In this document: positions 47,322 through 51,378 of the stretch, in pieces
Numbering within the stretch: the first letter of the stretch is position 1
Layout of the letters: every line of letters starts with the position of its first letter
Source of the DNA: Chloroflexota bacterium
Lineage (GTDB): Bacteria; Chloroflexota; Anaerolineae; Anaerolineales; Villigracilaceae
Length of the DNA: 64,000 bases
Assembly: GCA_013388855.1 (NCBI GenBank)
Contig: JACAEM010000013.1
Span: forward strand, 124,001 to 188,000
Direction: 5' to 3'
The notes under the pieces: generated by a model
Seen by the model: only the letters and a program-made list of their open reading frames with translations
What the model was told of the DNA's origin: nothing
The model's database searches: none
Position numbers and translations under genes: made by a program

Positions 47322-49517
47322 TTAAATCTTTCCCAATGCTTTTAGTACGCGTTCGGGTGTGAACGGAAATTCATTGATCCACACCCCGGTCGCGTCGTGG
47401 ATCGCCGCCGCGATGGCAGGAGCAACCACGAGAAAAGGCAGTTCACCCAAGCCGCGCGCCCCCCATGGGCCATTCGGATCAGGAACTTCAACAATGACGG
47501 TCTCCACTTTTTCGGGGATGTCCCAAATGGTGGGGATGAGATAGGTGCTGAGCTGGTCGGTGAGCACATAGCCGTTTTTGGTTTTGTAGTCTTCAAGGAT
47601 GGCATAGCCCTGCGCCTGTACCACCGCGCCTTCCACCTGCCCCTGCACGAGGGCAGGGTTGATTGGCTGCCCGACATCATCGGCAGAGACGACGCGCACC
47701 ACGCGGACATGACCGGTCTCGGTGTCCACTTCCACTTCCACGGCTTGCGCGACGAAGGCGTAAGCAAAGTTCGGTGTGGAATGGCCGGTTTCCTTGTCGA
47801 ACTGGTTGGTGCGCGGGGCGAGATATTTGAACTCCCCAATGGCGGGACGTTCTTCCGCCTGCCATTTTTTCAACGCCACGTCCGCCGCGCCGCGGATCGC
47901 ATTGCCCGCCATGAAGGTCATGCGTGAAGCCGAAACGGAACCGGAATTCCCCATCGTCGCCGAGTCGGATGCGATCATCTTCACCTTCTCGAACGGTACG
48001 CCAACCGCCTCTGCTGCCATCTGTACCATCACCGTATGTGTACCCTGTCCCACTTCAGCGCCGGCGTGATGAAGTACAACATGGTCAATTTCACTGTTGC
48101 CATGAATCTCGATCTTTGCCCAGCAATTCTCCTGATACCCGAAGGAGAAACCGACATTTTTGAATCCGGCTGCGAAACCTCGCCCGCGTTTCAAATGCGA
48201 CTGAACTTCCACTTTCTGCTTTTCATTTTGCCATTCAAATTTTTCCGCCGCCGACTCGATGCATTTCACTACACTCACCGGGCTGGGACTCGGGGTTCCT
48301 ACCCCCATCGTATCGCCATCGCGCAACGCATTCCTCAAGCGGAATTCCACCGGGTCCATGCCGAGTTTTTCGGCAAGCTTGTCCATTTGCATTTCAGCCA
48401 TGAACAACGCCTGCGGAGCGCCGAATCCACGGAACGCTGCACCGGGCACATTGTTGGTGTAGACGCCGTAGACATCGGTCTTTACATTCGGAATGAAATA
48501 AGGTCCGGTGGATGTGATGGTGGAATTCCCCAACACCTTGTTGGACGTGTACATATATGCGCCGCCATCAGCGATCAATTCGACTTCCGCGGCGACAAGC
48601 TTGCCATCCTTGGTCGCTCCCCATTTGGCGCGGCTGACAGACGCGTGGCGTTTTCCATGCCCAATGATCGACTCCTGCCGTGACCAGATAATCTTGACCG
48701 GGCGTTGCAACTTCCACGCCGCCAGCGCCAGCACTATCTGCACGGACATGTCTTCCCGCCCGCCGAACGCGCCGCCAATGGCTGGGTAGATCACGCGCAC
48801 ACTTTCATTCGGCATGTTCAAGGCATGTGCCACCTGGTGTTGATCTTCGTGCGTCCATTGCCCCCCGCATTCCAACGTAATGCGGCCCTGGTCGTCGATG
48901 TAAGCGAGTCCTGCTTCAGGCTGGAGATAGGCATGTTCCTGCACCGGTGTTCGGTACTCACTTTCCACGATCACGGCAGCTTGGGCGAAACCAGCTTCCA
49001 CGTCCCCTTTGCGGATTTTGTAATGGACGCAAATATTCGAATCGCCGATCTCTGCGTGGACGCGAGGTGCATCCGGTTTCATTGCCTCGATGGGATCGGC
49101 CACCACCGGCAGGTCTTCGTAGCCGACCTCGATCAATTTCACCGCCGCGGCGGCTTCCGCTTCGGTGCGCGCCACCACCGCTGCAACCTGATCGCCGACA
49201 AAACGGACGACATCTGTACCAGGTTTGGTGTTGACCTGGTCAATGGGTCCGCAAAAAACGGGCTGATCCTGCCATTGCAAGCCATATTCATTGACGGGAA
49301 CGTCCTTGGCTGTGTAAACCGCCACTACGCCGGGGGCAGCTTCCGCTTTGCCGGTCTTAATCCATTTGATGCGCGCATGAGGGCGACCTGCGAAGAGCAG
49401 CTTCATGTGCAACATGCCCTTCATGGAAAGGTCGCCGGAATAGGGCGTTTCTCCTGTGACTTTGCCGCGTGCGTCCACGCGGGGGAGGGATTTTCCGATG
49501 GTATTATGCGTTGTCAT
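47322..49517 (-). CDS. Molybdenum hydroxylase large subunit (xanthine dehydrogenase family)
   Basis: 731-residue molybdopterin-binding subunit. The N-terminal domain is a/b hammerhead (GKVTGETPYSGDL). The molybdopterin domain has AIGGAFGGREDMS, GAAFRGFGAPQ, HHAGAEVGQGTHTVMVQ and the catalytic Glu in ARGLGELPF. The loop reads AFRGFG, the purine/aldehyde oxidase pattern, not the AYxCSFR of aerobic CO dehydrogenase. The substrate cannot be named from sequence; purines, nicotinate-like heterocycles and aldehydes are the common choices. Third gene of the operon with the fused FAD/FeS subunit and a membrane protein. Confidence 0.93.
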   Translation of the reverse strand: MTTHNTIGKSLPRVDARGKVTGETPYSGDLSMKGMLHMKLLFAGRPHARIKWIKTGKAEAAPGVVAVYTAKDVPVNEYGLQWQDQPVFCGPIDQVNTKPGTDVVRFVGDQVAAVVARTEAEAAAAVKLIEVGYEDLPVVADPIEAMKPDAPRVHAEIGDSNICVHYKIRKGDVEAGFAQAAVIVESEYRTPVQEHAYLQPEAGLAYIDDQGRITLECGGQWTHEDQHQVAHALNMPNESVRVIYPAIGGAFGGREDMSVQIVLALAAWKLQRPVKIIWSRQESIIGHGKRHASVSRAKWGATKDGKLVAAEVELIADGGAYMYTSNKVLGNSTITSTGPYFIPNVKTDVYGVYTNNVPGAAFRGFGAPQALFMAEMQMDKLAEKLGMDPVEFRLRNALRDGDTMGVGTPSPSPVSVVKCIESAAEKFEWQNEKQKVEVQSHLKRGRGFAAGFKNVGFSFGYQENCWAKIEIHGNSEIDHVVLHHAGAEVGQGTHTVMVQMAAEAVGVPFEKVKMIASDSATMGNSGSVSASRMTFMAGNAIRGAADVALKKWQAEERPAIGEFKYLAPRTNQFDKETGHSTPNFAYAFVAQAVEVEVDTETGHVRVVRVVSADDVGQPINPALVQGQVEGAVVQAQGYAILEDYKTKNGYVLTDQLSTYLIPTIWDIPEKVETVIVEVPDPNGPWGARGLGELPFLVVAPAIAAAIHDATGVWINEFPFTPERVLKALGKI

Positions 49518-49549
49518 TGCTCTGCTTTCAGATCAAAACGATGTCGTAG

Positions 49550-49963
49550 TCAGCGTGTGTATTTTTTGACTTTCTTTCGGATCGGCGGTGCGTCGGTGGG
49601 ACCGTATTGCGATGGACCGAACGTCTTGTAGATGAAGCCGTAGAGAATGGCCATGATCGTGAACAAAAAGATGCTGATGAGCACCGTGAAAAGAACGTAC
49701 GCGGGCATGAGGGGCTGGCTCTCTATGTAAAACAAGATGGGGTTCAGACCATTCAAAACTTTCATCCAATTGGGAAATACGATTCCACTGACCAATTCCC
49801 TGGGCAGCGGGATGGGAAAGTTGTTCACCGCGATGACAGATACGCCGTAGGACAGAATCGGAACGATGACCATCATGATGCAGCCGATGCCCCTCATGAC
49901 AGGATGCACCTCGCGGTGGATTTTTGGCAGCGGTGGGGTGTTTCTTGAACTATATTTACCCAT
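49550..49963 (-). CDS. Unknown small membrane protein inside the molybdenum hydroxylase operon
   Basis: 137 residues with two clear helices (about 23-45 GIGCIMMVIVPILSYGVSVI and about 87-112 YVLFTVLISIFLFTIMAILYG) and a basic C-terminal tail (IRKKVKKYTR). No family recognised. Strong GAGGTAAAC-ATG at 49963; the longer in-frame ORF to 50305 is a shadow of the neighbour. It sits between the fused FAD/FeS subunit (8 bases upstream) and the large subunit (32 bases downstream), so it may anchor the otherwise soluble enzyme to the membrane (inference). Confidence 0.8.
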   Translation of the reverse strand: MGKYSSRNTPPLPKIHREVHPVMRGIGCIMMVIVPILSYGVSVIAVNNFPIPLPRELVSGIVFPNWMKVLNGLNPILFYIESQPLMPAYVLFTVLISIFLFTIMAILYGFIYKTFGPSQYGPTDAPPIRKKVKKYTR

Positions 49964-49971
49964 GTTTACCT

Positions 49972-51378
49972 CTATTGAACGATTTTGCTCGCGTCCTCGA
50001 TGGCTTGAACGATCTTGTAATAACCGGTACAACGACAAAGATTCCCTGTGATTGCCTGCTCGATCTCGCCGCGCGTGGGATTCTCCTTTTCTTCCAACAA
50101 CTTCGCCGCCGACATGACAAACCCCGGCGTGCAATATCCACACTGAACGGCGCCATGTTCGATAAACGCCTCCTGCACAGGATGCAGGTGCCCGTCCGCA
50201 GCAAGCCCTTCGATGGTCACGATTTCTGCGCCATGCGCGCGCGGCGCGGGGACGAGGCACGCCATCACAGCCTTGCCGTCCAGGAAGATGGTACAGGCGC
50301 CGCACTCGCCTTCCGCGCAGCCTTCCTTGGTGCCAATCAAATTCCCTTCCTCGCGCAACAGACGCAGGAGGGTCTTGTCATGTCCGTTTTTGAAAGTATA
50401 GCGCCTGCCGTTGATTGTCGTTTCAATGGGATCGGACGGCGACTTGTGCGATCTCTGGACTCCGTTTTTGGGAGCCTGTCCCCACAACAAGACCGCCTCA
50501 AACGGCATCCCGGCCTGCTCCTGACCATCGCGAATGGACCTCAACCCGCGCAGAGTGCAGACTCGCACCATCTCGCGGCGGTATGCCGCGGAACCTCGTA
50601 CGTCGTCAATCGGCTTGGAAGCATTCATCGCCAAACGCGCAGCTTCGGCGATGACCTCGTCAGTCAACTTCCTGCCCGCGAGATATGTCTCAGCTTCAGG
50701 GGCATGGATGATCGTCGGGGAGACGGCTCCGAGTGTGATGGCTGCCGATTTAACGGAATCAGCCCCCAGGTCCAGGATGATCGTGACGTTGACCAGGGAA
50801 ATTGCCTGGGCGCGGCGCAACGCCAGTTTGATGAACGCGCCGCGGGCAGTGGAATTCATCGCAGGAAAGGAAATATCCACGAGCATCTCATCAGGCTGCA
50901 TTACCGTCTTGCGAACGCCGGTGTAAAAATCCTCGAGCGAGACTGTGCGCATGCCTTTGACAGATTTCAAGGTGACGGATGCGCCGAGCGCCATCAGCGG
51001 TGTGATGGTGTCGTTGGCGGGCGAAGCGGTGATGAGATTGCCTGCGACCGTGCCGCGGTTGCGAATCTGCGGCGCGCCGACCTCCCATGCCGCACGTGCC
51101 AGCGGATAGGCGTGTTCTCGGATCAGTTTCGACTCGACGCAGTGATTGTGGGTGACAAGCGGACCAAGGTGGATGATGTTGTCTTCGTCAATGGTGATTT
51201 GGTCGAGTTGTGGGATGCGGGTAATATCGATGAGGGTGTCGATGTTCCTGCGAACACCGCGTTCGAGTTCAAGGATGAGGTCGGTAGCTCCTGCGACGAT
51301 GCGCGCGCGTTTCCCATTTTCTGCGAGAGCGTCGAGCGCTTCCTCGATGGTTGTTGCATTGATGTAGTTATGCCACAT
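49972..51378 (-). CDS. Fused FAD-binding and [2Fe-2S] subunit of molybdenum hydroxylase
   Basis: 468 residues combining two subunits that are usually separate. Residues 1 to about 285 are the FAD-binding (CoxM-type) subunit: RIVAGATDLILELERG, IRNRGTVAGNLITASPAND. From about residue 310 comes the small iron-sulfur (CoxS-type) subunit: GCAEGECGACTIFLDGKAV with the plant-type cluster and CGYCTPGFVMSA...CRCTGYYKIVQAI with the second cluster. Electrons would pass from molybdenum through both [2Fe-2S] clusters to FAD. First gene of the operon. Confidence 0.93.
   Translation of the reverse strand: MWHNYINATTIEEALDALAENGKRARIVAGATDLILELERGVRRNIDTLIDITRIPQLDQITIDEDNIIHLGPLVTHNHCVESKLIREHAYPLARAAWEVGAPQIRNRGTVAGNLITASPANDTITPLMALGASVTLKSVKGMRTVSLEDFYTGVRKTVMQPDEMLVDISFPAMNSTARGAFIKLALRRAQAISLVNVTIILDLGADSVKSAAITLGAVSPTIIHAPEAETYLAGRKLTDEVIAEAARLAMNASKPIDDVRGSAAYRREMVRVCTLRGLRSIRDGQEQAGMPFEAVLLWGQAPKNGVQRSHKSPSDPIETTINGRRYTFKNGHDKTLLRLLREEGNLIGTKEGCAEGECGACTIFLDGKAVMACLVPAPRAHGAEIVTIEGLAADGHLHPVQEAFIEHGAVQCGYCTPGFVMSAAKLLEEKENPTRGEIEQAITGNLCRCTGYYKIVQAIEDASKIVQ

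Follow-up and report, generated by a model that had tools for sequence, protein, structure and literature searches.

Members of the xanthine oxidase family have mostly been described as soluble proteins, and the question raised by the locus described here is what a small membrane protein does among the genes of such an enzyme. The locus lies on the minus strand of a 64,000-nucleotide stretch of DNA (positions 124,001 to 188,000 of contig JACAEM010000013.1; hereafter, the window), which is part of the 4.03-Mb assembly of a Chloroflexota bacterium belonging to the Villigracilaceae. It comprises genes for a fused flavin adenine dinucleotide (FAD)/iron-sulfur (FeS) electron-transfer subunit, a 137-residue protein and a catalytic molybdopterin subunit (Table 1). 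Both structural features on which the original prediction was built were borne out by the present analysis: the FAD and FeS domains (PF00941, residues 4-173; PF03450, 183-281; PF00111, 321-371; PF01799, 388-461) all lie within a single polypeptide of 468 residues, and the small protein, for which two hydrophobic peaks and two model helices were obtained, is encoded between the two subunit genes. We propose, with a probability of roughly one half, that the locus encodes a xanthine oxidase-family molybdenum hydroxylase, probably selenium-dependent, that is equipped with a dedicated two-helix membrane anchor, both tails of which would face the cytoplasm.

Conservation of the small gene with the enzyme genes

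The sample of 100 genomes from the same family yielded the small gene in 91 and the catalytic ortholog (threshold, E 1e-150 or better) in 88, with both being present in 87, neither in eight, the small gene only in four and the catalytic gene only in one. The sole catalytic-only genome, G081, represents a contig edge because its gene starts at base 134 of the contig, and it is also the only one of the nine genomes without the small gene to have the ortholog (71% identity); six of the others have relatives of 37-44% identity only and two have no match at E 1e-100. Three of the small-only genomes (G051, G058 and G067) are cut by a contig end, and the fourth (G064) has no ortholog at the threshold. 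The small and catalytic genes are at most 400 nt apart on the same strand in 77 of the 87 genomes, are separated by 0.76-1.1 kb in five, and lie on different contigs in another five, three of which (G009, G061 and G077) have them near contig ends and two of which (G011 and G033) are real separations. The small gene was found in 26 of the 26 sampled genera of the family, as a single copy in the window genome and as one match in every positive family genome.

Conservation of the small gene between the subunit genes, which the original prediction had proposed as a check, was examined in a second set of 80 loci that was fetched by the catalytic subunit and shares contigs with the genome sample, so that the two sets are not independent. 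The order FAD/FeS-small-catalytic was present in 60 of these loci, while seven had no small gene, five had the catalytic gene alone, and one had the FAD/FeS gene off the contig. FAD and FeS domains were found in one open reading frame in 71/80 loci, neither being detected in seven of the other nine and FeS only in two. By the catalytic subunit, the closest named loci are those of Anaerolineales and other Anaerolineae/Chloroflexi metagenome-assembled genomes (MAGs), at 82-83% identity. The loss of the small gene from otherwise identical operons of close relatives had been named in advance as the result that would count against its functional association with the enzyme; among close relatives the association held, both genes being retained in 87/100 genomes, whereas it did not extend to the seven more distant loci. 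A membrane-protein gene is conserved within the structural gene cluster, as is expected at the gene level of a membrane-anchored dehydrogenase complex.

Two variations in the spacing of the small and catalytic genes were also observed. A gene on the opposite strand splits them at L053:6940-8040 (-), L147:5465-6334 (+) and L148:4673-5626 (-), which is a rare break of the tight cluster. In a more distant group (L113:4654-7974, L102:4548-7885 and L103:3249-7812), a protein judged by eye to be sulfotransferase-like and a protein of 580-660 aa are encoded between the two, and neither of the intervening proteins of L113 had an NCBIfam match at 1e-10.

Sequence and predicted structure of the small protein

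The small open reading frame is not a chance one: its family numbers 102 distinct homologs, in which certain positions are conserved, and its genomic place is kept. Its hydrophobic peaks span residues 28-46 and 89-107, and an AlphaFold2 model based on a 46-row alignment (the window protein and 45 of the other listed homologs) has helices at residues 21-48 and 86-115, with short helices between them and less certain tails (mean predicted local distance difference test score [pLDDT], 87; predicted template modelling score, 0.71). The highly conserved positions are G25, G27, C28, P35, P117, D124 and P126, with C28, which belongs to a GxGC motif, being present in 91 of the 103 aligned rows. Homologs giving two or more hydropathy peaks, of which the first and last were taken as the two helices, have on average 5.6 lysines plus arginines in the N tail and 6.7 in the C tail but 3.2 in the longer loop, and the richness of the tails relative to the loop suggests that both ends are cytoplasmic. 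No histidine was conserved (75% or more) inside the predicted helices of the homologs, H20, just ahead of the first helix, being a histidine in 79/103 rows. Since there is no conserved helix histidine, a haem-carrying role appears unlikely for the small protein, and an anchor is more likely than a haem-type electron carrier.

The small protein had no Pfam match at 0.001 and no NCBIfam match, and a comparison of 46 members with Pfam at 0.1 gave only scattered weak matches to 12 families, with no CoxG or SRPBCC family among them. The best PDB sequence match was at E 0.075, Foldseek with the model returned five matches, none at E 0.001 or better, and the best Z of the 28 chains aligned by VIA-align was 5.3, which is within the uninformative range. 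Membership in the CoxG family was considered and rejected because Pfam detected no CoxG/SRPBCC domain in the window protein. No paper on the small protein was found among the matches listed, and none was found that pairs 'molybdenum hydroxylase' with 'Anaerolineae'.

Enzyme class and active site

The enzyme belongs to the xanthine oxidase family, as indicated by the domains Ald_Xan_dh_C, MoCoBD_1 and MoCoBD_2 together with FAD_binding_5, CO_deh_flav_C, Fer2 and Fer2_2, and all eight cysteines for the [2Fe-2S] clusters are present (354, 359, 362 and 374; 413, 416, 448 and 450). FeS and FAD parts are likewise fused in the XdhA model, in the reverse order: the FAD part here, at residues 9-274, matches 199-460 of the 468 model positions.

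Several curated identities were examined and rejected for the catalytic subunit. Its best NCBIfam match was pucD, the 586 bits of which fall below the cut-off of 784 for PucD (an equivalog), and the score for the selenium-dependent xanthine dehydrogenase TIGR03311 (472 bits) was below the cut-off of 830. Form I carbon monoxide (CO) dehydrogenase, which the original prediction had excluded on the basis of the active loop, is again excluded here: AYxCSFR, which we take to be the active-site loop motif of that enzyme, is absent from the window protein and 82 relatives, the loop reads AFRGFG, and the match to TIGR02416 reached 264 bits against 991. As a separate observation, the window genome probably encodes a group 5 large subunit of aerobic CO dehydrogenase at G000:C22:126104-126844 (L004; 942 bits, cut-off 950).

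GGAFGGRED was conserved in 82/82 relatives and FRGFGxPQ in 81/82. As in PucD and xanthine dehydrogenase, the Glu of GGAFGGRED and the Arg of AFRGFG align with the bovine sequences GGGFGGKE and AFRGFG, at what are presumably the purine-binding positions of bovine xanthine oxidase, whereas the position of the bovine purine-stacking phenylalanine, which we take to be F914, is occupied by valine. A purine-like or other heterocyclic substrate is plausible from these residues. No substrate is assigned by curated family: the protein is pucD-like with Glu and Arg as in xanthine dehydrogenase, yet passes no cut-off.

Selenium markers

The genetic markers of a selenium-dependent system are all present in the window genome, namely yqeB (TIGR03309), the sole copy of which is linked to the enzyme genes, yqeC (TIGR03172; 157 bits against a cut-off of 73), which lies on another contig, and selD, which contains an in-frame TGA. 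In the family sample, yqeB scored over its cut-off in 86/100 genomes and SelD in 91/100, and in 60 of the 88 genomes with the catalytic gene, yqeB followed that gene on the same strand at a distance of no more than 6 kb (partial rows repeating a genome and weak rows, E 3.7e-4 to 9e-4, were omitted from this count). According to the available part of the study that proposed it as a marker, TIGR03309 was found only in selD-positive genomes, often in molybdenum hydroxylase loci, and carbamate-kinase-type genes also cluster with selenium-dependent molybdenum hydroxylases (PMC2276186). The enzyme of one distant relative (L090) stands beside YqeB and a YqeC-MocA fusion, the MocA part of which is slightly below its cut-off, and that of a distant locus without the small gene (L099) stands between carbamate kinase and YgfK (968 bits; cut-off, 835). 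YgfK, which is reportedly also among the genes that cluster with these hydroxylases in the marker-proposal study, gave no match over the cut-off in the window genome.

The enzyme is probably a molybdenum hydroxylase of the selenium-dependent type. It resembles known members, such as the nicotinate dehydrogenase 3HRD, presumably from Eubacterium barkeri, and the E. coli xdhABC-yqeABC region, in its xanthine oxidase-family subunits, the linked yqeB and the presence of SelD and YqeC in the genome, and the catalytic subunit aligns with PDB 3HRD chain A over residues 5-426 (E 1e-79). Unlike them, it has the FAD-then-FeS fusion and the additional two-helix membrane protein.

Evidence against the proposal and alternative explanations

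Several observations, on the small protein, its presumed partner and the selenium markers, weigh against a selenium-dependent enzyme with a dedicated membrane anchor. Exactly two hydropathy peaks were present in only 47 of the 102 homologs, three being present in 43, four in 11 and one in 1. The seven loci without the small gene, all of which are more distant, keep the core enzyme (at one of these, L105, only the FeS end of the partner is on the contig), and a weak homolog at the order level (G367; locus L132) has no enzyme gene in its 3.2-kb locus. Among the 88 genomes with the catalytic gene, 28 have no linked yqeB, which is located elsewhere in 22 and gave no match in six, and yqeB also occurs in 6 of the 12 genomes without a catalytic ortholog at the threshold. 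Furthermore, YqeB may serve other molybdenum hydroxylases because the window genome encodes three others, one of which is near the selenium-dependent xanthine dehydrogenase model (782 of 830 bits).

Alternatively, the enzyme may be an ordinary sulfur-type purine or heterocycle hydroxylase, with YqeB serving another hydroxylase and no selenium here. This explanation is a serious candidate that we nevertheless consider somewhat unlikely. The name of pucD, the family with the best NCBIfam score, makes no reference to selenium, a protein encoded elsewhere in the genome matches the selenium-dependent xanthine dehydrogenase model better, and yqeB is missing or distant in the 28 genomes counted above; however, the only yqeB of the genome is at this locus, the linkage is repeated in 60/88 genomes, and distant relatives of the enzyme adjoin either YqeB and the YqeC-MocA fusion or YgfK.

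Regarding the partner of the small protein, gene order favours a tie to the electron-transfer subunit. In G011, G033 and G064, the small gene comes immediately after the FAD/FeS gene and is not followed by a catalytic gene, and in the 67 loci showing both the small and the FAD/FeS gene, these are about 0.5 kb or less apart. A gap of at least 300 nt between the small and catalytic genes, with none before the small gene, was noted in 6/80 loci, and the opposite kind in 1/80. The distance correlations, by contrast, point to the other subunit: in the 63 of the 80 loci in which all three proteins were above the chosen scores, the mirror-tree partial rank correlation of the small protein was 0.37 for the catalytic subunit and only 0.15 for the FAD/FeS subunit, with a bootstrap difference of -0.39 to -0.003, and special coevolution with the FAD/FeS subunit is not supported. 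A comparison of 66 FAD/FeS sequences from loci with the small gene and seven from loci without it also disclosed no contact patch, only one position differing consistently. Since gene order favours contact with the FAD/FeS subunit and the mirror-tree and one-position comparisons oppose it, this contact is regarded as likely and no more.

The protein of 172 aa encoded upstream of the FAD/FeS gene may be a further partner. Its conservation equals that of the FAD/FeS subunit (mean identity over 56 loci, 0.70), and its gene was found upstream in 53 of the 60 testable loci with the small gene and in none of the five without it. The window protein was aligned with 37 of the 53 listed upstream neighbours. 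Its model is helical (pLDDT, 87), and its fold had no Foldseek match at E 0.001 or better.

The small protein may also be viewed as a membrane-bound maturation or assembly factor, delivering sulfur, selenium or molybdenum, for example, rather than as a subunit of the finished enzyme. It shares a gene run with the maturation gene yqeB, and its best-conserved elements are the short tails and the GxGC motif rather than a large interface. This role is quite improbable, given that the small gene remains next to the FAD/FeS gene when yqeB has another location (as in G011 and G033), C28 is missing in 12/103 rows, and related enzymes dispense with the small gene in 7/80 loci. An independent membrane protein that is merely co-transcribed with the enzyme, such as one for substrate uptake or a small oligomeric channel, is difficult to credit, even though the small protein has diverged far more rapidly than the enzyme (its mean pairwise identity is 0.39, versus 0.70 and 0.73 for the enzyme subunits) and two-helix channels (KcsA, at a Z of about 4) and the mitochondrial pyruvate carrier (at a Z of 3.0-3.7) are among the VIA-align rows, each of them within the uninformative range, because it is a single-copy protein encoded close to the FAD/FeS gene and occurs nearly always with the enzyme (87/91 genomes, the exceptions being G064 and the three genomes in which the contig ends).

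Distribution in Chloroflexota

A profile of the 46-row alignment matched 18 of 298 genomes sampled from the class (14 of the family, three of the same order and one doubtful) and 28 of 400 sampled from the phylum (23 of the family, four of the order and one doubtful), and the order-level loci L130 and L131 have the same three-gene order. In a quick tree of 84 catalytic proteins, a single branch (support only 59) separates the loci with the small gene from those without it, and none of 500 label shuffles gave a number of separating branches as low. Since a single branch splits the two groups, one gain, or one loss, would suffice to account for the distribution of the small gene. The absence of the gene from the seven more distant loci marks it as a lineage-specific addition to the enzyme.

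Gene neighbourhood and palindromic elements

Beyond what the original prediction had described, the gene run extends downstream to yqeB and is preceded by the conserved 172-aa gene. The transcription order is the 172-aa gene, FAD/FeS, small, catalytic, alpha/beta hydrolase, DinB, DUF1361 and YqeB; the first four intergenic gaps are 47, 8, 32 and 40 nt in this order, with the ATG of the small protein being located 8 nt past the stop of the FAD/FeS open reading frame. The alpha/beta hydrolase was matched in 51/80 loci; among loci that have the small gene, 47 carry it downstream at a distance of up to 5 kb. The true start of yqeB is probably near 45121.

Table 1. Genes and palindromic elements of the molybdenum hydroxylase locus (positions in the window).
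Feature	Position	Strand	Remarks
172-aa helical protein, distantly LIMLP_15305-like	51426..51944	-	41 bits; cut-off 210
12-bp perfect hairpin just before the FAD/FeS gene	51389..51415	-	z -4.8, dinucleotide shuffles
Fused electron-transfer (FAD/FeS) subunit, 468 aa	49972..51378	-	FAD part first, then two [2Fe-2S] domains; single open reading frame
137-aa two-helix membrane protein (proposed anchor)	49550..49963	-	Two predicted helices; no Pfam/NCBIfam match
Catalytic molybdopterin subunit, 731 aa	47322..49517	-	PF01315, PF02738, PF20256
10-bp hairpin just after the catalytic gene	47289..47314	-	z only -1.3 in the window
Alpha/beta hydrolase, downstream neighbour	46418..47281	-	PF00561
DinB-family protein, downstream neighbour	45927..46487	-	PF05163; matched in 26/80 loci
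DUF1361 membrane protein, downstream neighbour	45132..45920	-	PF07099; matched in 48/80 loci
YqeB, selenium-dependent molybdenum hydroxylase maturation marker	44339..45244	-	TIGR03309, 277 bits; cut-off 220

Palindromes around the three genes were surveyed with mononucleotide shuffles. Scoring was confined to gaps of 20-250 nt (42/42 before the FAD/FeS gene, 6/62 between the FAD/FeS and small genes, 53/68 between the small and catalytic genes and 37/45 after the catalytic gene), and each small-catalytic stretch takes in the first 60 nt of the catalytic open frame. The 42 loci of the first gap are those in which recognition succeeded for both genes and for the expected FAD/FeS start. Strong hairpins (z below -3) were present before the FAD/FeS gene in 38/42 relatives and after the catalytic gene in 26/37. 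Inside the trio, they occurred in 1/53 small-catalytic stretches and in none of the six FAD/FeS-small gaps that were long enough, 56/62 of these gaps being outside the scored length. Since hairpins flank the trio and hardly occur inside it, the three genes look like one unit bracketed by palindromic elements. The hairpin sequences at loci L035-L114 are of several unrelated types (TAGGGRC...GYCCCTA, GTCATTGCGA and others); their position is kept and their sequence is not.

Proposed role and implications

In the mechanism that we propose, the cytoplasmic tails of the small protein (MGKY at its start and GPxxYGPxDAPP...KxKKYxR at its end) would bind the soluble enzyme, probably at its FAD/FeS subunit, and the bound enzyme would be kept on the cytoplasmic side of the membrane. 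The electrons released when the substrate is hydroxylated would pass from molybdenum through the [2Fe-2S] clusters to FAD and then to a membrane acceptor, either a quinone or another one; no redox cofactor is evident in the small protein. To judge by gene linkage, YqeB with SelD and YqeC would supply the labile selenium at molybdenum. The analysis establishes gene content, conservation, linkage and predicted topology; we infer the anchor role, and the further step, by which electrons reach the quinone pool, is plausible, so that the interpretation in the original prediction is supported in part. A respiratory chain is present, as the original prediction had stated, with a haem-copper oxidase set (cytochrome c, COX2, COX1, SCO1 and SURF1) being encoded in the window. 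Oxygen need not be the general electron sink or end acceptor because the operon was also found in a MAG labelled Brevefilum fermentans (L069), Brevefilum presumably being a fermentative genus.

Membrane-anchor subunits are familiar from respiratory dehydrogenases, among them SdhC/D and NarI. Like these, the small protein is a short membrane protein that evolves quickly alongside a soluble enzyme that is well conserved; it differs from them in that it has no conserved helix histidines for haem, and no sequence relation was found by Pfam or PDB searches. A precedent for membrane recruitment is CoxG, an SRPBCC-superfamily protein with a predicted PH domain, which, in the available part of the report, was proposed to recruit CO dehydrogenase so that its FAD passes electrons to the quinone pool; coxG mutants retained a functional CO dehydrogenase and grew more slowly (PMC4240915). 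According to the accessible part of a second report, CoxG-like proteins anchor glycerol-3-phosphate dehydrogenases (PMC11962113). CoxG, as described in those parts (PMC4240915, PMC11962113), and the protein studied here are alike in that the product of an additional small gene would recruit a soluble molybdenum hydroxylase to the membrane, whereas the small protein is a predicted two-helix hairpin without a Pfam match.

A broader and more doubtful proposal, which we regard as unlikely in its entirety, is that a Chloroflexota lineage added a two-helix anchor without recognised relatives to a soluble selenium enzyme, thereby coupling hydroxylation in a direct way to the quinone pool, whether oxygen is present or not. 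If it is true, the two-helix partner would represent a second solution to membrane recruitment that is unrelated to CoxG, as far as the latter is described in the available parts of its sources (PMC4240915, PMC11962113), and labile-selenium chemistry would be tied to membrane electron transfer in largely uncultured Chloroflexota. The proposal further assigns a role that can be tested to a protein family that neither Pfam nor NCBIfam matches.

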